Shown here piece by piece: positions 44,872 through 64,000 of a stretch of DNA of 64,000 bases. A program made the position numbers and the translations under genes. The stretch is from the NCBI RefSeq assembly GCF_000299355.1, contig NC_018664.1:372001-436000 (forward strand), read 5' to 3'. Under the pieces are notes generated by a model that was given only the letters and a program-made list of their open reading frames with translations, did no database searches and was not told the DNA's origin. Each line of letters opens with the position of its first letter. Within the stretch, counting starts at the first letter, position 1. This DNA comes from Gottschalkia acidurici 9a. Its GTDB lineage: Bacteria > Bacillota > Clostridia > Tissierellales > Gottschalkiaceae.

Positions 44872-44908
44872 ATCTTATTAGAATAACTTTATTCTAATAA
44901 GATTTTAG
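44872..44908 (-). terminator. Terminator overlapping the AraC-SBP stop codon
   Basis: AATCTTATTAGAATAA pairs with TTATTCTAATAAGATT, and on the minus strand it is followed by TTTTTC. The stop codon at 44889 lies inside the stem. Confidence 0.8.
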
Positions 44909-46538
44909 GTAGCTCTTCTAATAGTCTTTCTCTTGTAAATGCATCACCAGAGCTCCATTTTGCATTATTAACGAGATAGGCGTGTCCATTTCTCACAGCG
45001 GGAAGACTCTTCCAAAGAGAAGTTTCTATTAGTTCTTCTGTAGCTAATCTTGATTCTATTGCTTCAGGGAATAGAATGAAAACCCTATCACCCGCATAAT
45101 CAGATAATAAATCTAAGGATATTTCCATATAGCCTAAACCATCATCTATAATTTTTTTAACAGGATCTACTGGTTGAAATCCATAGCTATGATAGAGAGA
45201 GGATGGAAGACCTTTAAGCCCCATAACAAATAATCTCTTTCCATGATCAAATGTAAAAACGGAAGCTGTTTCGCCATATCTTAATGTTGATTGAAGTTGC
45301 TGCCACATAATATTTTCTCTCATATTATAACGACTAATCCAGTCTTCCGCCTCTTCTTGTTTATTAAGCCACTTTCCCAAAGTCTTCATACGGTTTTCTA
45401 ATGATGCCCAAGAATTATGAGTAACTGTAGGAGCAATTTTAGAGATCTCTTTATATTGCACTTCATCATCATTTGTGAAGATAATTAAATCTGGATCAAG
45501 TTTAAGACACTTTCCGGTGTTAAAAGGAAATCCTATATCGTGGACAGAGCGAACATAATTTTTATAAAAAGTATTTTCTATATTACTACCTATAGGGCAT
45601 ATTCCAAGTGCTAATAAATCACCCAATGATTCACCATGATAAATTATTCGTTTAGGTGATGAAGGTATTTCTACATTATGACCTGTCCAATCCCTTATCA
45701 AAACTTTTTGTCTCATGAAATGGGCATACTGTTTTGGTGGAACACCTACTACTTGACGAAAACGACGATTAAAATAGTATTCATCATTAAATCCAACACG
45801 CTGTGCAATTTTTCTCAAGGGCTCATCAGATTCATGAAGTAGGTGCTTGGCATTTTTAATTCTTAAGGTTGTTAAGTAGTCGAGTGGTTTTTGGCCGGTT
45901 AAGGTTTTAAAAATACGACTATACTGCCATGAAGGGATTTTAGCTCTATCTGCTAGTTGTTTAACTGTTAAATCTTGACAATATTGTTCATTGATGAACT
46001 TAATTGTTTGTTGAACCGCTGTTGTATTATCTTTAGTATCATCATTATCTACTTGGTATTCAATTAATATCTTTAATAGTTCATAAAACTGTATTTGTTT
46101 ATTTAAATGTTCTAAACTATTTTTATTATCTCTATTCTTATATAATTCTTCGGTCAAGCGATATAAGCGGGTAAGTGGGTAGATAGAAAACTCAATCTGA
46201 TTATGAAATACATCTTCCGAATAAAGTGATGGCTCTTGATTTTCATTACTTTGAATAACTTTATACGTAAGTTTATAGAAGCTTAGAAAATTTTTATCTA
46301 CATTTACCATCTCTAGCAGAGTTTCTGGTTTTAATACGAAGCATTTACCCTGCGTTGCAAAAAAAGGTTCACTTTCGATAGAAACAGTTGCGCTTCCATC
46401 TATAAAAATAAATAAAGTGTGAAAGTTAGAATTAAAATTGTTAAAATTCCAGTTACTATCCCACTTAATATAGCTAATATCAATTAGTTGAAAAAATAGT
46501 GATTGTTTAAATAGACTTTGATTACTAGTCATAAACAA
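44889..46538 (-). CDS. AraC regulator fused to a siderophore-binding domain (Btr-like)
   Basis: This 549-residue protein has an N-terminal cupin-like arm, an AraC double helix-turn-helix (QDLTVKQLADRAKIPSWQYSRIFKTL; EPLRKIAQRVGFNDEYYFNRRFRQVVG) and, directly after it, a FecB/TroA-type siderophore-binding domain (VEIPSSPKRIIYHGESLGDLLALG and on). There is no membrane segment, so the whole is cytoplasmic, like B. subtilis Btr, which senses imported ferric siderophore. The domain closely follows the binding lipoprotein encoded next to it (VDIPASPKRVIFHGENFGDLLAIG), so the pair probably binds the same ligand. The lipoprotein gene is transcribed in the same direction, upstream. Confidence 0.93.
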   Translation of the reverse strand: MFMTSNQSLFKQSLFFQLIDISYIKWDSNWNFNNFNSNFHTLFIFIDGSATVSIESEPFFATQGKCFVLKPETLLEMVNVDKNFLSFYKLTYKVIQSNENQEPSLYSEDVFHNQIEFSIYPLTRLYRLTEELYKNRDNKNSLEHLNKQIQFYELLKILIEYQVDNDDTKDNTTAVQQTIKFINEQYCQDLTVKQLADRAKIPSWQYSRIFKTLTGQKPLDYLTTLRIKNAKHLLHESDEPLRKIAQRVGFNDEYYFNRRFRQVVGVPPKQYAHFMRQKVLIRDWTGHNVEIPSSPKRIIYHGESLGDLLALGICPIGSNIENTFYKNYVRSVHDIGFPFNTGKCLKLDPDLIIFTNDDEVQYKEISKIAPTVTHNSWASLENRMKTLGKWLNKQEEAEDWISRYNMRENIMWQQLQSTLRYGETASVFTFDHGKRLFVMGLKGLPSSLYHSYGFQPVDPVKKIIDDGLGYMEISLDLLSDYAGDRVFILFPEAIESRLATEELIETSLWKSLPAVRNGHAYLVNNAKWSSGDAFTRERLLEELPKILLE

Positions 46539-46634: not shown

Positions 46635-47606
46635 CTATTTTTTTAACATTCTAGGAACTTCTTCTAATAACCATTCTCTAGTAGATGCATCACTATTACT
46701 TTTTTGAATATCTATGAAATAAACATGTCCATTTTTAACAGCAGGTAGATCATTCCATAGCTGACTATTTATCATTTTAGCTGTTGATTCCTTTGCATCG
46801 TGCAAGTTAGTTTCAGGATTAAGAACGAAAATCCTATCTCCTGCATACTCAGGAAGGAGTTCTAAGGATATTTCTGCGAAACCCTTTTTTTCATCAAGAA
46901 ACTTTTGAATTTTATCTCCTGGTTTAAAACCTTGAGGAGAATATAGCACTTGAGAAAGACCAGTAGTTCCCATAATAAATAATCTATTTCCAGGATAGTA
47001 GGTAAGTACTGTAGCTGTTTCTCCAGGTTGTATCGTTCCATCCTCTATAAGTTGTTGCCACATATGTGATAATTTCTTATTATATTCTTTCAACCAATTA
47101 TCTGCTTCTTGTTTCTTTCCTAATATATCTCCTAGCTCAGATAATCTATCTTCTAGTGGGGCAAAACTATCAAACACTATTGTTGGAGCAATTTTTGATA
47201 GCTGTTCATAGACTTTTTCATCTGAACCTGCAAAAACAAATAAGTCTGGCTTAAGTTCTAATACTTTTTCTAGGTTAACTGGAAACCCCACATCTTCCAC
47301 ATCTTTCGCACGATCTTCATAGATATGATCTTTAATCCATACATTACCTGTACCAACTGCATCTACACCAATGGCTAGAAGGTCACCAAAATTTTCGCCA
47401 TGAAAAATTACTCGCTTTGGTGAAGCAGGGATATCAACTTCATGTCCCATATAATCTTTATATTTGCGAGTTTTTGATTTCTCAGATTCATTTTGAGTTG
47501 ATATTTCATTATCCTTTTCCACTGTTTTAGAGTTACATGCAGTTATAAACACACTCACTAGTAGTAAGAGAGAGAAAGATAAAATCATTCTTTTTGCATA
47601 CTTCAT
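46635..47606 (-). CDS. Siderophore-binding lipoprotein of an ABC importer
   Basis: This 323-residue extracellular lipoprotein has a signal peptide with lipobox ITAC and a FecB-like fold in which two domains are joined by a long helix (KIAPTIVFDSFAPLEDRLSELGDILGKKQEADNWLKEYN). The motif GHEVDIPASPKRVIFHG opens the mature protein. The ligand is presumably a ferric hydroxamate or citrate-type siderophore. No permease gene adjoins it, so it must use the permease set at 58.8-61.8 kb or one elsewhere. A Fur box lies upstream. Confidence 0.93.
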   Translation of the reverse strand: MKYAKRMILSFSLLLLVSVFITACNSKTVEKDNEISTQNESEKSKTRKYKDYMGHEVDIPASPKRVIFHGENFGDLLAIGVDAVGTGNVWIKDHIYEDRAKDVEDVGFPVNLEKVLELKPDLFVFAGSDEKVYEQLSKIAPTIVFDSFAPLEDRLSELGDILGKKQEADNWLKEYNKKLSHMWQQLIEDGTIQPGETATVLTYYPGNRLFIMGTTGLSQVLYSPQGFKPGDKIQKFLDEKKGFAEISLELLPEYAGDRIFVLNPETNLHDAKESTAKMINSQLWNDLPAVKNGHVYFIDIQKSNSDASTREWLLEEVPRMLKK

Positions 47607-47750: not shown

Positions 47751-48089
47751 TTGAAAAAATCAGATAATCAAATATTACTTTAGAATTATGCATCAATTAA
47801 GATTCTTGATGTTCGTTATATGACAATGAAACTTGGAGAACAATTAGATTCTTACTATTTACCTACAAGTACATTCTTATATATTACAAGGGGTAGTGCG
47901 AAAATATATATGGACGGAGATATGCAAATTACTGAATCATTTCATATAATTCATGGTGGCAAGGGAATGTGTCTTGATATTATCCCAAAGGAAAGTCTTG
48001 AGTACTATTTAATTATGTATAAAGCAATGATTCCTCCAAAATCTAATAAAGAGATTATGAAATTAATAGATAAGATGAATCCATATTGA
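47751..48089 (+). pseudogene. Truncated AraC-SBP regulator (N-terminal sensor only, nonsense codon)
   Basis: AGGAGG precedes a TTG at 47751. The frame reads KKSDNQILL, then TAG where the paralogues at 51.3 and 53.5 kb have Trp (ILLWNRTSIKVLDV), and continues ASIKILDVRYMTMKLGEQLD and HIIHGGKGMCLDIIPKESLE to a stop at 48089, just before the AraC helix-turn-helix would begin. So it is a decayed copy of the N-terminal cupin-like arm. The part from 47820 could still be translated as an 89-residue peptide. Confidence 0.8.
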
Positions 48090-48104
48090 AAAATATTTAG
48101 AATT

Positions 48105-49128: not shown

Positions 49129-50424
49129 ATGAAAAAAGTATTATTAGCTTTGATTTTAATTTTATCTTTAACTGGTTGTAATGAAAGACAACTAAACAAA
49201 GCATACGAATATTTAAAAGCACAAGAATATAAAAAGGCTGAAGATATATTTATTAAAGTGTCAAATGATAAGGATATACAGAATTCGAAAAAGGCATACC
49301 TTGGACTAATAGAAATATATGATGAACTAGATGATATAGAAAAATTAAAAGAAGTATTAGAAGAGTCTACAAAAAAAGGTTTAAAATATCAAGATGAAAA
49401 TACATATAATAAAATATTTGATTATTATAAATCAATAGGTGATGAAAAAACAATAAGATATTTAGTTGAAGATGGATTTTCGAATATAAAACTTCCTATT
49501 GATATATATAGAGAATATATAATAAATGATAATATAGGTAATTCTGAAATAATAGATATTATAGTTGAAGATTTAAATGATGATGGGAAAAATGAGATCG
49601 CAGTTGCCCTTGGAAATAAAGGAATAGAATATAATAAAGATTCATATGTACAAGTTAATCTTAAAGTTTTTAATAATAAATCTAAAGTAATATATGAAAC
49701 TGATGAACCAATGTCACATGAGATTGCAGATATACATATTGAATTAGGTGATTTTACTGGTGATGGTAAACCAGAGCTTTACTATAATAGAGCACATTCA
49801 TCAAACTTTACGATAAATAAAATAGAAATATTGGATTTTAGAAATAACAAGGTTAAAAATATATATGATTCTGATTCTGTACTATTAGATTTAGATATAT
49901 CAACAATAAGTGATAATCAGTTGAAAATCTTTTCACAGGATAAAAGAAAGTCTTATATACTACAGACTGATTGGGAAATGAACATATTTGACACAGAGTA
50001 CCAGCGCTTCAATATGGGAGAATATAAGGTAGTTAAAGATAGGATTCGAAACATAGCAAAATTAGAACTTCCAATAACTCTTTGGGGCAATGGCACATAT
50101 GGAAAACTACTAGTTACATATGAATATAAAGATGGGAAGGTAACTTATAAAGATTTTAAATTCACTCCGGAAGAAGGAGTAAAGATAGTTAGTAGCTTAT
50201 CAGGCAAAAAATACGATTCGATAGAATATGGAAAAAACCTATTAATAAGATACTGGGATATGAAAAAAGATGACTCAGAACAAGGTAAAATTGTATTGAA
50301 AGTAAATGAAAATGATATGATTTTCTTTACACCTAATTCGGGCTATGTAGAAACGCAAGCTTATGAAGTTATAGAATGTGATGAGAAAAATGAAATAATA
50401 ACAGTAAAAAAGATGATATCATAG
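49129..50424 (+). CDS. TPR-like / VCBS-type lipoprotein, C terminus cut by a frameshift
   Basis: This 431-residue secreted lipoprotein has a short signal peptide with lipobox LTGC. Residues 25-130 are helical repeats of TPR type (AYEYLKAQEYKKAEDIFIKV; AYLGLIEIYDELDDIEKLKEVL). Then come two FG-GAP/VCBS-like calcium loops (VEDLNDDGKNEIAVALG; LGDFTGDGKPELYYNR). The frame ends at 50424, but one frame over the protein continues as DDIIETYEIYSSDTRTEMAL to 50537. One A is missing from the A6 run at 50406-50411. So the last 37 residues are replaced. No iron-related role is evident. Confidence 0.8.
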   Translation: MKKVLLALILILSLTGCNERQLNKAYEYLKAQEYKKAEDIFIKVSNDKDIQNSKKAYLGLIEIYDELDDIEKLKEVLEESTKKGLKYQDENTYNKIFDYYKSIGDEKTIRYLVEDGFSNIKLPIDIYREYIINDNIGNSEIIDIIVEDLNDDGKNEIAVALGNKGIEYNKDSYVQVNLKVFNNKSKVIYETDEPMSHEIADIHIELGDFTGDGKPELYYNRAHSSNFTINKIEILDFRNNKVKNIYDSDSVLLDLDISTISDNQLKIFSQDKRKSYILQTDWEMNIFDTEYQRFNMGEYKVVKDRIRNIAKLELPITLWGNGTYGKLLVTYEYKDGKVTYKDFKFTPEEGVKIVSSLSGKKYDSIEYGKNLLIRYWDMKKDDSEQGKIVLKVNENDMIFFTPNSGYVETQAYEVIECDEKNEIITVKKMIS

Positions 50425-50624
50425 AAACATATGAGATCTACTCTAGTGACACGAGAACAGAGATGGCACTGAAAGAGGGCAATAAGATATGGTCAGTATG
50501 GTCTCCAATTCAAAGTGTTTATGGATATTTAAATTAAAATTTTTAATATAGTAATATTAATTATATCTATGTTTACTTTTAATTACGAAACATATATTCA
50601 TACTAGTTGATTTTAAGTCGTAGA

Positions 50625-51085
50625 AAAGAAGTAAAAAAGTTTTTAGAGGAATTTAATAGATAAATTGAAAAAGCAAAGATTGAAATGAATGAGGTTATTA
50701 GTAAAGATGACACATTTACTACTTTAATAATAAATGAGAAAAATACTTTTGTGATTGTTAATAATAGCATGAATCAAGGTAGAGTGTTATTTAAAGTCTT
50801 AGATATGAAGTCGCAAAAAAATATAATACTGAAAAATATTCTGGTGTTAGTTATGAGATTACTGGTGACTATATAGGAGACTGAGTATTTGAAATTAGCT
50901 GATTTTAATAAAAAAGAAGAATTCCCAGCAACGTGGACAGAGTTGGATATAGTGAAAAAAGATGAAGTAATAAAATTAGAAACAAAAAACTGTTTTATCT
51001 TAGACCTAATATAATAATGTACCAAGCTGAAGAACTAGTTAATAAAATCGTAGAAGTTACTTCAAAAAAGCGAAACAAAAATTAA
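50625..51085 (+). pseudogene. Degenerate C-terminal half of a siderophore-binding protein
   Basis: The sequence reads KKFLEEFNR, stop, IEKAKIEMNEVISKDDTFTT, then with frameshifts to ELVNKIVEVTSKKRNKN. It parallels residues of the SBP part of the protein at 51253-53202 (KINEVISEDDTFSILGINEK ... VETASKKRSKN) almost line by line. So this is the wreck of an earlier tandem copy, lying directly before the intact one. Confidence 0.85.
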
Positions 51086-51154: not shown

Positions 51155-51183
51155 TTGACTAATTAATAGTGAGTTGATAGAAT
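51155..51183 (+). promoter_or_regulatory. Promoter, first of three conserved copies
   Basis: TTGACT (51155-51160) and TAGAAT (51178-51183) with a 17-base spacer. The block repeats at 53401 and 55861, each followed by a Fur box about 15-20 bases downstream. Confidence 0.7.
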
Positions 51184-51197
51184 AAAAAATACAATGA

Positions 51198-51215
51198 AAT
51201 GAGAATCGTTATCAT
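51198..51215 (+). promoter_or_regulatory. Fur-type box
   Basis: AATGAGAATCGTTATCAT has a perfect second half and GAGAAT in the first. It sits at the expected transcription start, so Fur binding would block transcription. Confidence 0.8.
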
Positions 51216-51252: not shown

Positions 51253-53202
51253 GTGAAAATAGATGACCATATTCTGCTCTGGAATCGCACATCAATCAAA
51301 GTACTAGATGTACGCTATGTAAATATGAAGCATGAGGAAAAGCTTCTTTCTTACCAATTACCTTCAAGTACATTTTTATATGGAATTAATGGCAGTGCAC
51401 AAGTATGGATAGATGGAGTCGTACAGATAGTAGAAAGATTTCATGTTTTTCATGGGGGAAAGGGCATGTACCTTGATATTATGGCAGGAGATAGCTTTGA
51501 GTACTATCTAATTATATATAAAGCAACAATTCCTTCATATTCTGAGAAAAGGATTTTTAAATTAATAGATAATGAAAATATATTTCAATCCCAGTATAAC
51601 TTTTCCCCTCAATATCCACTTTCATTATTGGGCAAGGTAGAATTGATGAACCAGCAATGGGTCGTGGGAGGTATGTTAGAAAAGTTGCACACTAAAACAT
51701 TATTATATCAATTTGTACATGATTTACTATGGCAGTTAAATCATCAAAATATTGAACTGAGTAAGCCTGATATAGTTACTCAAGCTATTCGTTATCTACA
51801 TGATAGATATAGTGAGCAGATTACACTGGACTCTATATCTGAGGACTTAAATTACAGTACTCGTTATTTATCTAGAAAATTTAAGAAACAGATAGGAATG
51901 AGTCCTATTGCATTTTTAGTTCAGATAAGAATTAAAAAAGCACAACACCTACTAACAAGCACAAATGCATCTCTTCAGGAGATTGCGGAACATATAGGAT
52001 ATTCAGACATGTTTTACTTTAGTCGTATTTTCAAAAAACATACTGGAATGACTCCTATGAAGTTTAAAGATTACATGATAGCAAATAAAAAAGAGTCTAA
52101 TTGTATATATAATAGGTCCATATCCCCCATTGTAAATGGAAATATGCAATGCTATAGTATTTGTGAAGATGATAATCATAATCAATACTATGAAGGGAAT
52201 GATTTACCAATGTACAGAAAAATCAAAACACCAATGGTAGCAACTTTATTACTTTGCTTTATCTTATTGTTGGGTGCTTGTTCTAGTAGGACAGGTGAAA
52301 CTACATTAACAGAGAATAAAGAAAATGTTGTACAAACTAAAAATAAAACAATAACAATTACTGATGATGCGGGTAGGAAAGTAGAAATACCAGAAAAACC
52401 AGAACGTATTGCAACAGACTGGTTTGTAGGACAAGTACTTTCACTAGATGTAGTACCAGTTGGAGCAGATATGAGGTATGTAGACTATTCACTTTACTTA
52501 AAAAATTATTACAACGATGGCGATATTAGTGATATAGGTGATACTAAAGCATCTTTAGAGAAATTAGTGGATGTAAATCCAGACTTAATTATTACTTGGG
52601 ACAAGGACGCTGTAGAGAGGTACTCAAAAATAGCACCAACAATTGTGTTTTCAGAAGCTAAGTACAAGACAGTGCACGAAGAAATCACTGCAATGGGAAA
52701 ATATTTAAATCGTAATGAAGAAGCAAAAAAATTTTTAGCGGAATTTGATAGACGAACTGAAAAAGCAAAGACTAAAATTAATGAAGTTATTAGTGAAGAT
52801 GATACATTTAGTATTCTTGGTATAAATGAGAAAAGTGCTTTTGTGGTTGGTAATGATAGCGTGAATGGAGGTAGAGCGTTATTTCAAGTTTTAGATATGA
52901 AGCCACAAAAAAATGTTCAAAAAAAATACGATACTGAAAAATCTTCTGGTGGTAGTTATGAGATATCACATGAGGTTATTGGTGACTATATAGGAGATTA
53001 TGTATTGGCAACAGTTCGTTCTGATAAAAAAGAAGATTTACCAGCAACATGGACAGAACTTGATGCGGTGAAAAATGATGAAGTAATAGAATTAGATGTA
53101 AAAAGATATTTTTCTTCAGATCCAATATCTGTGATGTACCAGATAGAAGAACTAGCTGATAAAATTGTAGAGACTGCTTCAAAAAAGCGAAGTAAAAATT
53201 AA
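51253..53202 (+). CDS. AraC regulator joined through an internal lipoprotein signal to a siderophore-binding domain
   Basis: The 649-residue frame has three parts: a cupin-like arm with FHVFHGGKGMYLDI, an AraC double helix-turn-helix (EQITLDSISEDLNYSTRYLSRKF; ASLQEIAEHIGYSDMFYFSRIFKKHTG), and from about residue 320 a sequence that is a complete lipoprotein start: MYRKIKTPMVATLLLCFILL then LLGACSS, followed by a FecB-type binding domain (VEIPEKPERIATDWFVGQVL). It could be a membrane-tethered regulator with an outside sensor, or give a free lipoprotein by internal start at ATG 52210. The GTG at 51253 (GGGAG, spacing 8) is chosen because the upstream ATG at 51199 lies in the Fur box. Confidence 0.88.
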   Translation: MKIDDHILLWNRTSIKVLDVRYVNMKHEEKLLSYQLPSSTFLYGINGSAQVWIDGVVQIVERFHVFHGGKGMYLDIMAGDSFEYYLIIYKATIPSYSEKRIFKLIDNENIFQSQYNFSPQYPLSLLGKVELMNQQWVVGGMLEKLHTKTLLYQFVHDLLWQLNHQNIELSKPDIVTQAIRYLHDRYSEQITLDSISEDLNYSTRYLSRKFKKQIGMSPIAFLVQIRIKKAQHLLTSTNASLQEIAEHIGYSDMFYFSRIFKKHTGMTPMKFKDYMIANKKESNCIYNRSISPIVNGNMQCYSICEDDNHNQYYEGNDLPMYRKIKTPMVATLLLCFILLLGACSSRTGETTLTENKENVVQTKNKTITITDDAGRKVEIPEKPERIATDWFVGQVLSLDVVPVGADMRYVDYSLYLKNYYNDGDISDIGDTKASLEKLVDVNPDLIITWDKDAVERYSKIAPTIVFSEAKYKTVHEEITAMGKYLNRNEEAKKFLAEFDRRTEKAKTKINEVISEDDTFSILGINEKSAFVVGNDSVNGGRALFQVLDMKPQKNVQKKYDTEKSSGGSYEISHEVIGDYIGDYVLATVRSDKKEDLPATWTELDAVKNDEVIELDVKRYFSSDPISVMYQIEELADKIVETASKKRSKN

Positions 53203-53307
53203 AATTATTGTAAAATATTTGCTTAATATGTTAAATATTTTGAATCTTGTTATTTAAAAAACAACCCTTATGTTTACTATAAACAATTTTAATAAATTGA
53301 ATTTTAA

Positions 53308-53354
53308 GGTATTCTCATGAGATATGTAGTAGCATGAGAATATCTATTTTTTTG
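53308..53354 (+). terminator. Terminator of the first chimera gene
   Basis: AAGGTATTCTCATG pairs with CATGAGAATATCTA, then TTTTTTTG. A copy of the hairpin at 51091. Confidence 0.8.
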
Positions 53355-53400
53355 ATAGAACAAAACATGAATTAACTAATTAGAATCATGACTTGCTACG

Positions 53401-53429
53401 TTGACTTATTAATAGTAAGTTGATAGAAT
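53401..53429 (+). promoter_or_regulatory. Promoter, second conserved copy
   Basis: TTGACT (53401-53406), 17-base spacer, TAGAAT (53424-53429). Confidence 0.7.
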
Positions 53430-53443
53430 AAAAAATACAATAA

Positions 53444-53462
53444 AATGATAATTGTTATCATT
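53444..53462 (+). promoter_or_regulatory. Perfect Fur palindrome
   Basis: AATGATAATTGTTATCATT is an exact palindrome (8-3-8) placed like that of the first copy. Confidence 0.85.
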
Positions 53463-53498
53463 TGCAGATATAAATATTTTAAAAGAGGAGATGAAGTG

Positions 53499-55391
53499 GT
53501 GAAAATAGATGACCATATTCTGCTCTGGAATCGCACATCAATCAAAGTACTTGATATACGTCATATAACCATGGAATATGGTGAAGAACTTAGATCATAC
53601 AGATTACCTGCAAGTGCATTTCTATATGCAACTAGGGGTAATGCAAAAGTGAGTATTGATAATATAATAAAAATGACTGAAAGATTTTATGTATTTCATG
53701 GAGCCAAAGGAATGTATCTTGATATTATGGAAGTGGATAGCTTTGAGTGCTATTTGATTTTGTACAAGCTAATAACTCCGTTAAATTTTAGAAAAGAAAA
53801 TATATCTCAAATTCCATACTTAATTTACCCTAACAATCCAATTTTTTTGTTTGATAAGGTGAGTCTAATGAACCAAAAATGGAACAGCGGAAATTCATTG
53901 GAAAAGCTTCACGTTAAGGCATTGTTATATGAATTTGTATATGAGATTTTACATCAAATAAGTAATAAAAAGGCTAATAAGACTAAACTTGATTTAGTTG
54001 AACAAACCACACAATATATATGTGAAAGATATAATGAACAGATTACACTCGAATCTATGGCAAAGGAACTAAACTATAATCATAAGTATCTATCTAGAAA
54101 ATTTAAAAGTCAGACGGGAAAAAGTCCAATTACTTTATTAACTGATGTTAGAATTGAAAAGGCACAAGAAATAATGAGAAGCACTAACGCTACGATTGAA
54201 GAGGTTGCAAAGTATGTAGGATATTCAGATAAGTTTTACTTTACTCGTATTTTTAAAAAACATACAGGAATAACTCCAGGGAAATTTAAAGAATATACAA
54301 TAAATCAGAAAAAGGTGTCCAATAGTACAAATGATAAGTTGATATCGTCCATTGTGAATAAAAATATACGATGTTACAATAAAATTGAGAATGAGAATCT
54401 GGATCAGTACGATGGAAAGGATGATTTATTAATGTATAAAAGGCTTATAAAATCAATGGTGTTAACTTTATCTCTTTGTTTTACTTTATTGTTAAGTGCT
54501 TGTTCTGGAACTACTAATAATACTTCAATAAATGAAAATATACAACCTAAGGGAAAAATGGTTATGTATGAAGCTGAAAATGGAGAAATTGAAATTCCAG
54601 AAAATCCACAAAGAGTGCTAACTGTATCGGATAGTTACGTAGGATATCTACTAGCTTTAGGTATCAAGCCAGTTGGAATGTCAGACTATGCATTAGGACA
54701 CCCATTTTTTGAAGGAAAAGTTGACGGAATAGAAAGCTATGGAGATAATCAATCAGTAGAAAAAATTTTAGAATTAAAACCTGATTTAATTTTTACATTT
54801 GATAATATGGAAGCGCTAGACAAGATGGAAAAAATAGCTCCAACAGTTGCAATAAAATATGGTGAGAAAGACTTTAGAGAACAGTTACGTGAATTTGGAA
54901 AGATACTTGGAAAAGAAAAAGAAGCCGGAGAATGGATTACAAATTGGGATAAGAAAGTTTTAGAATATAAACCTACTATTCAAGAGATTATGAAAGATAA
55001 AACAGTTACTATCTTAGTGGGAAGTTCTAAAGGAATTTATGCATATGGAGAAAATTTTGGTAGGGGTGGAGAAATACTTTATGGAGAATTTCAATTAAAA
55101 GCTTCAAAGATTATTCAAGAAGCAACAATGGATAAAAAAGAAGGATATGCCCTTCTTTCACTCGAAAAACTTCCAGAGTATGCTGGAGATTATATATTTG
55201 TAGCAGAAAATCTGGAAGAAGAAATTAGAGAAAATGATTTATGGAAGTCACTACCAGCAGTAAAAAACAATAGAGTGTTTACTATAGATGATGATATATG
55301 GTATTTCAATGATCCTGTTTCTCTGGATAAACAGCTTGAACTCATTGTTAAAAATCTTACAGGAAAAAGTAAATATATAATTATTATATAA
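53499..55391 (+). CDS. Second AraC regulator / lipoprotein siderophore-binding chimera
   Basis: This 630-residue frame is a paralogue of the one at 51.25 kb with the same order: cupin-like arm (FYVFHGAKGMYLDI), AraC domain (EQITLESMAKELNYNHKYLSRKF; ATIEEVAKYVGYSDKFYFTRIFKKHTG), then from residue 312 an internal signal sequence (LIKSMVLTLSLCFTLLLSAC) and a binding domain (IEIPENPQRVLTVSDSYVGY). The AraC parts are close, but the binding domains differ much, so the sensed ligand probably differs. The first 65 bases of the gene region are identical to those of the first copy. The GTG at 53499 (AGGAG, spacing 8) is the start. Confidence 0.88.
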   Translation: MKIDDHILLWNRTSIKVLDIRHITMEYGEELRSYRLPASAFLYATRGNAKVSIDNIIKMTERFYVFHGAKGMYLDIMEVDSFECYLILYKLITPLNFRKENISQIPYLIYPNNPIFLFDKVSLMNQKWNSGNSLEKLHVKALLYEFVYEILHQISNKKANKTKLDLVEQTTQYICERYNEQITLESMAKELNYNHKYLSRKFKSQTGKSPITLLTDVRIEKAQEIMRSTNATIEEVAKYVGYSDKFYFTRIFKKHTGITPGKFKEYTINQKKVSNSTNDKLISSIVNKNIRCYNKIENENLDQYDGKDDLLMYKRLIKSMVLTLSLCFTLLLSACSGTTNNTSINENIQPKGKMVMYEAENGEIEIPENPQRVLTVSDSYVGYLLALGIKPVGMSDYALGHPFFEGKVDGIESYGDNQSVEKILELKPDLIFTFDNMEALDKMEKIAPTVAIKYGEKDFREQLREFGKILGKEKEAGEWITNWDKKVLEYKPTIQEIMKDKTVTILVGSSKGIYAYGENFGRGGEILYGEFQLKASKIIQEATMDKKEGYALLSLEKLPEYAGDYIFVAENLEEEIRENDLWKSLPAVKNNRVFTIDDDIWYFNDPVSLDKQLELIVKNLTGKSKYIIII

Positions 55392-55458: not shown

Positions 55459-55516
55459 TTATATAAGATATTAATTTTTATATTATATTTGTTACATTGA
55501 CTTACATATTAAAGGT

Positions 55517-55762
55517 ATTGTTAAAGAGGGAGAAACAGTATCGGTAGTTCAAATAAGTGAGAAATCAATATTTGTATATGTAAATTCTAAAGAAGATTCA
55601 GAAAAGATTTTAAACAGTTCTATCTGGAAAAAGGTTCCCGCAGTTGAGCAGGGAAAGCTTTATATATACGGTCAGTTTGATGATGAATTTGTAATGGAAG
55701 ATCCATATTCTTTAGAGCTTCAACTTGAGACTATAGTAGATGTTCTTTTAAAAAATAAATAG
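55517..55762 (+). pseudogene. Siderophore-binding protein C-terminal remnant with internal deletion
   Basis: The frame reads IVKEGETVSVVQISEKSIFVYV, then NSKEDSEKILNSSIWKKVPA, then LYIYGQFDDEFVMEDPYSLE to a stop at 55762. The last part matches the family ending (LWKSLPAVKNNRVFTI...DPVSLDKQLELIVKNL). The region between the two lobes and the whole N-terminal domain are gone. No start codon is present. Confidence 0.75.
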
Positions 55763-55860: not shown

Positions 55861-55889
55861 TTGACTTCTTAGTAGTAGGTTGATAGAAT
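55861..55889 (+). promoter_or_regulatory. Promoter, third conserved copy
   Basis: TTGACT (55861-55866), 17-base spacer, TAGAAT (55884-55889). Confidence 0.7.
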
Positions 55890-55907: not shown

Positions 55908-55925
55908 GTGATAATCATTATCATA
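55908..55925 (+). promoter_or_regulatory. Perfect Fur palindrome
   Basis: TGATAATCATTATCA (55909-55923) is an exact palindrome just before the binding-protein gene. Confidence 0.85.
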
Positions 55926-55939
55926 TAAGGGGTGTACTT

Positions 55940-56911
55940 ATGTTAAAAAAGAGATCAAGTAAGTTGTTAATTGTTTTAACTATTATCCTTTCTTTATTTA
56001 TTACTGCCTGCAGTGGAAAAAATGAAGAAAAAGTTTCACAGGAAAGTAAAGAAAGTAAAACTAAAATTATAAAAACAGTAGATGGAGATATAGAAATACC
56101 AGCAGAGCCAAAGAGAGTAGTAGTACACGGATACTTACCTACTGTATTGGCATTGGGTGTAAATCCAGTAGGTGCTACTAAGCAAGATACTAAGAATATA
56201 CACATAAAGGATATGGTTTCTGGAATTGAAAGTATAGGAGAGGGCTTAGGAGGACAAGTATCTCCTGAAGCAATTTTAAGCTTGAAACCTGATTTAATTA
56301 TTACATTAGGATTTGGTGACGACAAGGAGAAACATGATAATATTTCAAAAATTGCTCCAACTATTACAATTCCATTTGATACTTATAAGAATGTTCACGA
56401 GGAAATGAAGGCATTCGGAGAAATACTTGGTAAGGAGAAAGAAGCTGAAGAGTGGCTTAAAGAATATGATAAAAGAGTTAACGTTGCTAAAGAAAAAGTT
56501 AAATCAGTAATTGATGAGAAAGAAACAGTTTCAATACTCGGAGCTTTCAATAAATCTTGTTATGTATACGGTAATGGTGGATATAGAGGTGGACAGGCTA
56601 TTTATAGAAATCTCGAATTAACACCACCACAAGTTATACAAAAAGAATTAATAGATGCTGGTGAAACTTTTAAGCAAATATCCCTTGAAGTAATGAAAGA
56701 CTATTCTGGGGACTATGTATTTTTTATTGATGAATCAGGAGAAGGGGCTTTTGATAAAAATAGTCAAGTTTGGCAATCTCTCGATGTCGTAAAAAATGAC
56801 AAAGTACTTTATATGGAACCAGACTTTTTCTGGCCTTATGATCCAATAGCTGTAATCAATCAAACTGAAAAGGTTGCAGACATGCTAGTTGAAAAGAATA
56901 AGAGTAAATAA
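55940..56911 (+). CDS. Siderophore-binding lipoprotein
   Basis: This 323-residue extracellular lipoprotein has lipobox ITAC and the FecB-like layout: IEIPAEPKRVVVHGYLPTVLALGVNPVG, LKPDLIITLGFGDD, the linking helix with MKAFGEILGKEKEAEEWLKEYDKRV, and SQVWQSLDVVKNDKVLYMEP. It has a promoter and Fur box of the type that drives the two chimeras, and the permease and ATPase genes lie downstream after the exporter-type ABC gene. It is the likely primary partner of that permease set, though the exporter-type gene has its own promoter between them. Confidence 0.93.
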   Translation: MLKKRSSKLLIVLTIILSLFITACSGKNEEKVSQESKESKTKIIKTVDGDIEIPAEPKRVVVHGYLPTVLALGVNPVGATKQDTKNIHIKDMVSGIESIGEGLGGQVSPEAILSLKPDLIITLGFGDDKEKHDNISKIAPTITIPFDTYKNVHEEMKAFGEILGKEKEAEEWLKEYDKRVNVAKEKVKSVIDEKETVSILGAFNKSCYVYGNGGYRGGQAIYRNLELTPPQVIQKELIDAGETFKQISLEVMKDYSGDYVFFIDESGEGAFDKNSQVWQSLDVVKNDKVLYMEPDFFWPYDPIAVINQTEKVADMLVEKNKSK

Positions 56912-62006: not shown

Positions 62007-62990
62007 ATGATTAAGTCATTTAGAATTATAATATTAGTATCCGTTATGATTATAGGACTAGTGGGATGTGGGAAACAAGATAAAGAAGATTCACAGAAGT
62101 CTCAAAACAACATGACAGGAGAGGAGAAGAGTATAGACAAAGGACAAATAAAAACTAGGACTGTGAGAGATGCTTTTGGTGAAGTTGAGATACCTGTAAA
62201 AGCTGAGCGTATAGTAGCACCTTATTTAGAAGACTATCTAGTTGCTTTAGGAAAGGAACCGGTAGTACAGTGGTATACTCAAACTTGGGGTAAACAGGAT
62301 TATTTAAATCTAGATGTACCTTTATTTGATATAAACGGAGATATAGAAGTATTATTAGATTCTAATCCAGATTTAATTATACTAGAAGGGGAGCCTGATG
62401 CGGAGAAATATGAAAAATATTCAAAGATAGCCCCAACTTACTGGTTGCCTAAAGATGTAAATCAAAACATGTCAAAGACTATTCAAACTATAGGAGATAT
62501 ACTAGGAGTACCAGAGAAAGCAAAAGAGGTTCTAAAAAGTTATGAGGAAAAAGCAGCTAAGGCAAAAGAAGAATTAAAAAAGACAGTTGGAAATGAAACG
62601 GTAGCTGTTATTCGTGTAAATATAGGGGACAAATCATTAGCTTTATTCAGTTCAGAGAAAGGATTCATAGGATCGACAATGTATAATGATCTTGGTCTAA
62701 CACCACATCAAATGGTTAAAGACGTGAAAGACTATCACAGTGTACTATCATTAGAAATTATACCACAACTTGATGCAGACCATATTTTTATCTTTCCATC
62801 TAACGGAGACTGGTCTTCACCAGAAAATAAAGAGGCAATAAAGAGTGTGGAGGAAGGAAAGCTATGGCAGAACCTACCTGCTGTTAAAAATGGACATGTT
62901 TATAAGGTGGATAGATCACATTGGCAAACGACAGCAATTAAAGCAAAGTCAATGCAGATAGATGATGTACTTAAGGAACTTACTAAATAG
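62007..62990 (+). CDS. Siderophore-binding lipoprotein
   Basis: This 327-residue extracellular lipoprotein has lipobox LVGC and the FecB-like layout: VEIPVKAERIVAPYLEDYLVALGKEPVV, NPDLIILEGEPDAEKYEKY, KIAPTYWLPKDVNQNMSKTI and LWQNLPAVKNGHVYKVD. It is monocistronic, with its own Fur box and terminator. The chimeric regulator that follows carries a domain whose visible start (RIFAPYLEDFLLSLGVTPIAQ) closely follows this protein (RIVAPYLEDYLVALGKEPVVQ), so the two likely bind the same ligand. Confidence 0.93.
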   Translation: MIKSFRIIILVSVMIIGLVGCGKQDKEDSQKSQNNMTGEEKSIDKGQIKTRTVRDAFGEVEIPVKAERIVAPYLEDYLVALGKEPVVQWYTQTWGKQDYLNLDVPLFDINGDIEVLLDSNPDLIILEGEPDAEKYEKYSKIAPTYWLPKDVNQNMSKTIQTIGDILGVPEKAKEVLKSYEEKAAKAKEELKKTVGNETVAVIRVNIGDKSLALFSSEKGFIGSTMYNDLGLTPHQMVKDVKDYHSVLSLEIIPQLDADHIFIFPSNGDWSSPENKEAIKSVEEGKLWQNLPAVKNGHVYKVDRSHWQTTAIKAKSMQIDDVLKELTK

Positions 62991-63106: not shown

Positions 63107-64000
63107 ATGAAGGAAAAAATAGCCACATCTATAGTCAATCCTAGTTTATTTTATAAATTGATTGATATCAAATACTTCACCGAGTGGAACGAAGAGGACA
63201 AAATTCCTACAGGCTATAATATATTAATTATTACAAGTGGAAAAGGAGTAGTAAGCATAGATAATATGATATTCAGTCTTGAAAGAGGGGACTGTTTTAT
63301 TCTTACACCAGACATGACAAATAATATAAAAGAGCAAGCGGATGAACTTTGTTTTTATTTACTCACATTTGATGTAGTGATATCAGAGGAGATTAAATCA
63401 AATGATACTGTAGGGAATCTAAAGATTAAACTTCCTTGTGAAGGAAAAGTTGACTGTGCTCCATTTTCTCAATGTATTGATTTAGTAGAGAATATATTCA
63501 AAGATTGTTATCGTAAAAATGAAATAGTAGCTTTCAATAATCATGTTCGATTTCAGCAATTATTACTCTATATTTTTCAACATAATGATTCTAGAAAAGA
63601 GACAGATATATATGTGCGAGTAAGCGAATCTATTGAATATATAAAACAAAATTTTAAGGATATTTTAACCGTAGATGAATTATCTATAATTTCTGATGTT
63701 AATAGAAATAGATATACATCTTTGTTTAAAAAAATAACAGGTCAAGTTCCTCTTAATTATATAAATGAAATTCGAATTAATAGAGCTAAGCGACTATTAT
63801 TAATGACAGATGATAAACTATTTGATATTGCTCGAAATGTTGGATTTAATGATGAATATTATTTTAGTAGACGATTTAAGCAAACAGTTGGGATTTCTCC
63901 TGGTCAATATAGATATAATAATAGGCAAAATATTAGAATATTTGCCCCATATCTTGAAGACTTTCTTTTATCTCTAGGGGTTACACCTATTGCTCAGTGT
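63107..64000 (+). CDS. AraC regulator fused to a siderophore-binding domain (Btr-like), 3'-partial
   Basis: The frame is open to the right edge (298 residues visible). It has a cupin-like arm (YNILIITSGKGVVSIDNMIFSLERGD), an AraC double helix-turn-helix (ILTVDELSIISDVNRNRYTSLFKKI; DKLFDIARNVGFNDEYYFSRRFKQTVG) and, without a membrane segment, the start of a binding domain (IRIFAPYLEDFLLSLGVTPI). So it is of the cytoplasmic Btr type, like the gene at 44.9 kb, and not the lipoprotein-linked type at 51-55 kb. GGAGGA precedes the ATG at 63107. It probably activates the adjacent binding-lipoprotein gene on sensing its imported ligand. Confidence 0.9.
   Translation, partial: MKEKIATSIVNPSLFYKLIDIKYFTEWNEEDKIPTGYNILIITSGKGVVSIDNMIFSLERGDCFILTPDMTNNIKEQADELCFYLLTFDVVISEEIKSNDTVGNLKIKLPCEGKVDCAPFSQCIDLVENIFKDCYRKNEIVAFNNHVRFQQLLLYIFQHNDSRKETDIYVRVSESIEYIKQNFKDILTVDELSIISDVNRNRYTSLFKKITGQVPLNYINEIRINRAKRLLLMTDDKLFDIARNVGFNDEYYFSRRFKQTVGISPGQYRYNNRQNIRIFAPYLEDFLLSLGVTPIAQC

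Follow-up and report, generated by a model that had tools for sequence, protein, structure and literature searches.

In Bacillus subtilis, Btr (YbbB) is an AraC regulator fused to a FeuA-like substrate-binding domain, and it activates uptake genes. Its gene ybbB adjoins feuA, and Fur and Btr labels are placed there (PMC3896406). Here, a 64,000-nucleotide stretch of the Gottschalkia acidurici 9a genome (NC_018664.1, positions 372,001 to 436,000; hereafter the window, whose own numbering is used) was analyzed, in which two genes, W1 and W2, resemble Btr in joining an AraC DNA-binding domain to a C-terminal siderophore-binding domain of the Peripla_BP_2 class, in their putative control by Fur, and in their position beside siderophore uptake genes. 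In contrast to Btr-like fusions, which have a different AraC N-domain, no internal signal and a separate substrate-binding protein (SBP) gene next door, the family of W1 and W2 appears to carry the receptor gene inside the regulator gene. Comparison with relatives indicates that both very probably represent a conserved family of in-frame nested genes, in which one locus would yield two products.

The C-terminal parts of W1 and W2 resemble FhuD2, FhuD, FtsB and the B. subtilis protein of 3hxp in being FhuD-fold SBPs with a lipobox signal; unlike these, they are specified by the in-frame 3' end of a regulator gene, and their putative promoter also serves as the linker of the regulator. In-frame genes with internal starts have been described for cas11 inside large Cascade-subunit genes (PMC11899642) and for repR/repR' of plasmid pIGRK (PMC6854812). 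As in those cases, a single frame is predicted to give two proteins, the shorter from an internal start, and conserved in-frame internal initiation signals of the kind seen in cas11 were found. W1/W2-type genes differ from both in that the inner unit has its own predicted sigma-A promoter and metal-repressor operator inside coding sequence, and in that the two products are expected in different compartments. No description of a nested AraC-signal-SBP arrangement was found in the open-access literature, most subscription papers lying outside the search.

The fused frames and their relatives

W1 and W2 are each read without interruption from a GTG codon to a single stop (Table 1), and Pfam places HTH_18/HTH_AraC (residues ~187-272) and then Peripla_BP_2 in one frame in both. 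In-frame ATG codons also occur upstream (51199 for W1, 53445 for W2), directly before or inside Fur-box sequence. As these abut or overlap the Fur boxes and the GTG codons follow GGGAG and AGAGGAG, respectively, the GTG codons are the likelier starts. Between the two domains lies a lipoprotein signal, which in W1 spans residues 320-343 (LLGAC, Cys 343) and begins at ATG 52210, and in W2 spans residues 312-335 (LLSAC, Cys 335) and begins at ATG 54432. The inner unit thereby has a start codon with a Shine-Dalgarno (SD) sequence, an n-region, an h-region and a lipobox Cys, followed by a part that is FhuD-like in fold and sequence. AlphaFold modeled the AraC (1-282) and SBP (365-649) parts of W1 with confidence, with a disordered linker (283-334; per-residue confidence score, pLDDT, about 30-50) and a short helix at the signal segment. 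An earlier reading of the window from its letters (the sequence-only reading) had described this order of AraC, lipobox and SBP in one frame and its absence from the other two AraC-SBP genes of the window, and open reading frames (ORFs), Pfam matches and signal positions agree with it on both points. The AraC parts of W1 and W2 are each other's best match (54%). Their SBP parts share 33% and group with different clades of other families, and the receptor module may have been exchanged.

Searches at genus and family level around the organism of the window returned no relatives, and its genus has no second genome in the sample; homologues were therefore taken from other families. A class-level sample held three fusions in one distant genome. 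A single-protein query against genome contigs gave no match, and an alignment of the AraC N-domain as query returned 31 loci, of which only one, at a contig end, was not fused. Matches to this domain occurred in Paenibacillus, Brevibacillus, Cohnella, Lysinibacillus, Lacrimispora, Scatolibacter, Konateibacter and Clostridium species, and strong matches were present in 48/151 sampled genomes of one family (probably Paenibacillaceae, judging by gene content), several of which had eight.

Searching other genomes for AraC-lipobox-SBP frames yielded about 158 fusions that share an AraC N-domain of one type (araN) and the internal lipoprotein signal, collected from a sample of Paenibacillaceae, Brevibacillus, Lysinibacillus, Lachnospiraceae and other Clostridia; 82 members are non-redundant. 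In the first collection the signal was present in the linker of all 139 unique araN-type fusions and in none of 12 Btr-like fusions, so the arrangement is not a chance fusion, as had already been argued from the two divergent copies in the window. The lipobox Cys is invariant in the family. The Btr pattern, in which the domains are joined with no signal between them and a separate SBP is adjacent, is not that of araN-type fusions. Both regulator types can occur together, as in Lysinibacillus, where one series of loci (L037-L041) comprises, in tandem, an SBP, a Btr-like fusion, an SBP and two signal-bearing fusions.

Signals and gene context of a probable nested receptor

Across the family, the linker before the internal start resembles a promoter region, with sigma-A -35 and -10 elements, a Fur box (or another dyad operator), an SD sequence and a start codon. 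The sequence-only reading had proposed internal starts and had missed this promoter and the Fur box that most members carry inside the coding linker. Among 140 unique members, a strict SD 4-mer preceded the internal start in 93% (100% by the lax definition), compared with 18.5% and 21%, respectively, of 2113 other in-frame ATGs. Where one of the four codons ahead of the internal start encodes Gly, it is GGA or GGG in 183/184 cases, against 45% elsewhere; the start itself was GTG or TTG in 9/140 members. Similar values were obtained with the 82 non-redundant members (strict SD 77/82, lax SD 82/82, GGA or GGG 103/106).

The conserved linker peptide D-N-H-Y-Q was considered as a protein motif and rejected, as it proved to be a Fur box (TGATAATNATTATCA). 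This 7-1-7 box near a sigma-A promoter has two mismatches or fewer in 127/158 fusions and one in W1. Its mean mismatch was 1.67, compared with 3.02 for synonymous shuffles and 6.25 for other stretches, and the third positions of its codons appear forced (GAT 136/136, TAT 144/145, CAA 92/97, against 45% elsewhere). Likewise, the nearly invariant linker Tyr (Y301 in W1) is the TAT of the -10 box, and the codon that follows is ATT in 58/58 cases where it encodes Ile and AGT in 20/20 where it encodes Ser (17% elsewhere). Promoter-like matches within the window were no rarer than chance (35 found, 30 expected), and weight was therefore placed on the family-wide test, in which the internal promoter scored 8.8, compared with 5.8 when codons were shuffled synonymously and 4.1 elsewhere. 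In W1 and W2 alike, the internal -10 element ends 52 nucleotides before the ATG. Synonymous divergence (dS, 40 disjoint pairs) reached 0.55-0.67 in the two domains, AraC and SBP, and fell to 0.26 across the linker and to 0.17 across the operator/SD stretch. Codon choice in the linker thus seems to track DNA signals, and the linker looks like a promoter read as protein. A separate, shorter mRNA from the nested promoter is likely, in addition to internal ribosome entry.

Gene context points in the same direction. Where signal-bearing fusions have FecC-FecD in their flank, no separate SBP was found in 24/26 loci, which leaves the fusion gene as the only local receptor candidate for the importer; the nested product is accordingly predicted from gene context to be a lipidated surface receptor serving FecCD. 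An SBP gene lay within 1.5 kb of 43/44 signal-less fusions but of only 12/148 signal-bearing ones (136/148 without). The window follows the same rule, as the signal-less fusions at 44889 and 63107 are paired with SBP genes at 46635 and 62007, respectively.

The through-frame, split copies and alternative explanations

An alternative is that AraC protein and receptor are both real and their genes merely lie in the same frame, the full-length fusion being a functionless by-product. Standalone araC-stop-SBP arrangements do exist (L026, L028), and one family member (L184) is split by a broken frame. However, two separate proteins alone would leave the linker frame free, and the nested Fur boxes, which lie at ten different distances, hold one phase in 127/127 cases, whereas the phases before 62 free SBP genes were 27/21/14. 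Members of the Clostridia type (L044-L063) have, in place of the Fur box, a dyad (RGTTAG-N6-CTAACY), which occurs once ahead of the ORF and again at the internal promoter. In the internal copy, a T in CTAAC would produce the stop codon TAA in the reading frame. This T is present in 20/20 copies at ORF starts and replaced by A, G or C in 21/21 internal copies, giving AAA, GAA or CAA. The dyad was derived from these same loci, the contrast between T and non-T lying outside its scoring. We read the replaced T as a trace of selection that keeps the regulator frame open across the operator; our guess is that a DtxR-like metal regulator binds this dyad. The one-phase Fur boxes and the avoided TAA together argue that the full-length frame is under selection. 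The AraC N-domain as sole query, which does not presuppose fusion, also returned almost only fused frames (161 matches in 25 genomes, nearly all in long fused frames; among the matches listed, all but nine were in open frames of at least 599 amino acids, and most of the exceptions fetched were broken genes). Moreover, the AraC copy retains its SBP domain after splitting. A mere shared frame is therefore very unlikely.

Splitting was seen in later sampling as loss of the signal in six araN-type fusions from four lineages. Each of the six has an adjacent free SBP that is 42-53% identical to its own sensor domain, and in front of some of these free SBPs the former linker with its Fur box persists (Y-I-N-E-N-H-Y-Q-L ... 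ATG). In a tree of SBPs, the signal-loss pairs fall inside signal-bearing clades at three or more separate places. Repeated splitting of the dual gene, giving a fusion plus a separate SBP gene, has apparently taken place in no fewer than three lineages. L184 (G1152 contig 10, ~61 kb) is a natural split copy in which the AraC frame stops in the linker; the Fur-box linker, the internal start and the signal are all retained in its SBP frame. The pairs L026 and L028 were not used as evidence of splitting, their AraC N-domain match being only remote. The sequence-only reading had named separated homologues as what would refute it. A few do occur (the one split copy and the separate SBPs beside signal-less fusions), but as derived split genes, in which form they fit two products from one gene.

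A second alternative holds that W1 and W2 encode tethered one-component regulators and nothing else, with the hydrophobic segment anchoring the AraC part, the sensor outside and no free lipoprotein. The topology is plausible (positive n-region, N-in/C-out) and the full-length frame is clearly selected, but the conserved internal promoter, operator, SD sequence and start codon, the retained lipobox Cys, the transporter loci with no other SBP, and the appearance of an adjacent SBP upon signal loss would all go unexplained, which makes this explanation highly improbable. Least credible is a post-translational split, in which Lsp would cut a full-length precursor at the lipobox and leave an AraC fragment plus a lipoprotein. 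The lipobox Cys is invariant and the segment resembles a normal signal peptide, but the internal promoter, SD sequence and start codon would be superfluous, and signal-loss members keep AraC fused to SBP.

Several points weigh against a dual-product gene. Its support is entirely comparative, and relatedness within the family makes the counts non-independent. The internal start was picked among nearby start codons partly by SD strength, which favors finding an SD. Taken singly, the SD test set individual genes only weakly apart from synonymous shuffles (-8.25 vs -7.07 kcal/mol), since the peptide already fixes many purines, and it was complemented by the Gly-codon, Fur-box and promoter tests. 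The linker dN/dS of 0.54 gives little evidence for the linker peptide itself; reflecting depressed dS, it is not by itself proof of selection on the peptide. The one-phase rule could be partly inherited, though box distances vary. Twelve signal-bearing fusions lie near an SBP gene, which in most cases is part of a neighboring Btr-like pair. In the window, the internal Fur box of W2 is degenerate and the SD sequences of W1 and W2 are weaker than typical. Overall, the comparison shows both reading modes, the putative nested gene and the through-frame, to be under selection, and the suggestion of the sequence-only reading that each gene may make a regulator and, from its internal ATG, a free binding lipoprotein is strongly supported by the comparative evidence.

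Given two products, the full-length protein may take either of two topologies. Cytosolic sensing, as in Btr, is somewhat favored. AraC-SBP fusions survive signal loss, so sensing need not involve the membrane, and the full-length protein may contain the signal because the nested gene requires it. Tentatively, the full-length product could instead be an AraC regulator that spans the membrane and exposes its siderophore receptor on the outer side, possibly with release through lipoprotein processing. Tethering of this kind was the other option offered by the sequence-only reading; we consider it the less probable of the two. The hydrophobicity of the h-region (2.11 in fused, 2.30 in free signals) does not decide topology.

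Features of the window and possible biological meaning

The decayed third AraC-lipobox-SBP copy upstream of W1 is present as two remnants (Table 1), separated by an unrelated lipoprotein gene (49129-50424). A C-terminal fragment of another SBP (55510-55762), located after W2 and ahead of the free SBP gene that starts at ATG 55940, suggests that receptors have been repeatedly gained and lost at this locus.

Table 1 Features of W1, W2 and neighboring genes in the window
Feature	Position	Strand	Remarks
Btr-like AraC-SBP fusion	44889-46538	-	no signal; comparator
Separate SBP lipoprotein gene	46635-47606	-	beside signal-less fusion 44889
Decayed third copy, AraC N-terminal part	47757-48104	+	in-frame stops
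Decayed third copy, SBP remnant	50601-51082	+	several stops
Promoter-like site before W1	51155-51183	+	TTGACT-17-TAGAAT, extended TG
Fur-box-like site, W1 ORF start	51200-51214	+	TGAGAATCGTTATCA, 2 mismatches
W1	51253-53202	+	AraC, linker, lipoprotein signal, siderophore-binding domain; GTG start, 649 amino acids
W1 putative internal promoter	52130-52158	+	TTGTAA-17-TATAGT, extended TG; encodes linker (I-V ... C-Y-S)
W1 internal Fur box	52170-52184	+	TGATAATCATAATCA, 1 mismatch; codes D-N-H-N-Q
W1 internal SD	52193-52198	+	AAGGGA
W1 predicted nested receptor gene	52210-53202	+	ATG, signal peptide, lipobox Cys (52279-52281), FhuD-like SBP
Promoter-like site before W2	53401-53429	+	TTGACT-17-TAGAAT
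Fur box, W2 ORF start	53446-53460	+	TGATAATTGTTATCA, 1 mismatch
W2	53499-55391	+	AraC, linker, lipoprotein signal, siderophore-binding domain; GTG start, 630 amino acids
W2 putative internal promoter	54352-54380	+	TTGTGA-17-TACAAT, extended TG
W2 internal Fur-box-like site	54386-54400	+	degenerate, 4 mismatches
W2 internal SD	54416-54421	+	AAAGGA
W2 predicted nested receptor gene	54432-55391	+	ATG, signal peptide, lipobox Cys (54501-54503), SBP
Free SBP gene	55909-56911	+	ATG 55940; perfect Fur box TGATAATCATTATCA (55909-55923); promoter-like site 55861-55889
Separate SBP	62007-62990	+	beside second signal-less fusion
Second signal-less AraC-SBP fusion	63107-64000	+	534 amino acids; runs past window end

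In the mechanism we propose, the outer unit would start at its own, often Fur-controlled, promoter and give a full-length AraC regulator whose C-terminal sensor is the siderophore-binding domain. The inner unit, located in the 3' half of this frame, would use its own sigma-A promoter, Fur box or Clostridia-type dyad, SD sequence and start codon (52210 in W1, 54432 in W2) to give a free siderophore-binding lipoprotein that feeds an ATP-binding cassette (ABC) importer. Iron limitation would lift Fur and derepress both units, so that receptor is made in quantity, while the regulator, bearing the same binding domain, would recognize the same ferric siderophore and, like Btr, switch on uptake genes. 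The production of both proteins, their common ligand and this induction circuit are what we infer from the sequences. Should the full-length product be membrane-spanning, one gene would supply the receptor domain in two roles, as a free subunit of the importer and, outside the cell, as the sensor of a one-component transcription factor.

The same DNA appears to encode a regulator and its receptor in many soil and gut Firmicutes. If so, annotation as a single AraC regulator hides the receptor of an uptake system, ten or more times per genome in some Paenibacillaceae-type genomes. The family would furthermore illustrate with unusual clarity how a regulated promoter and operator can encode a protein linker at the same time, both constraints having left their record in the choice of codons and in the avoidance of a stop codon. 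The dual gene has apparently been split more than once, and the resulting genes form a natural series in which the resolution of overlapping genes can be tested. Another idea open to direct testing is that a sensor and a transport receptor retain one ligand specificity because one piece of DNA encodes both.

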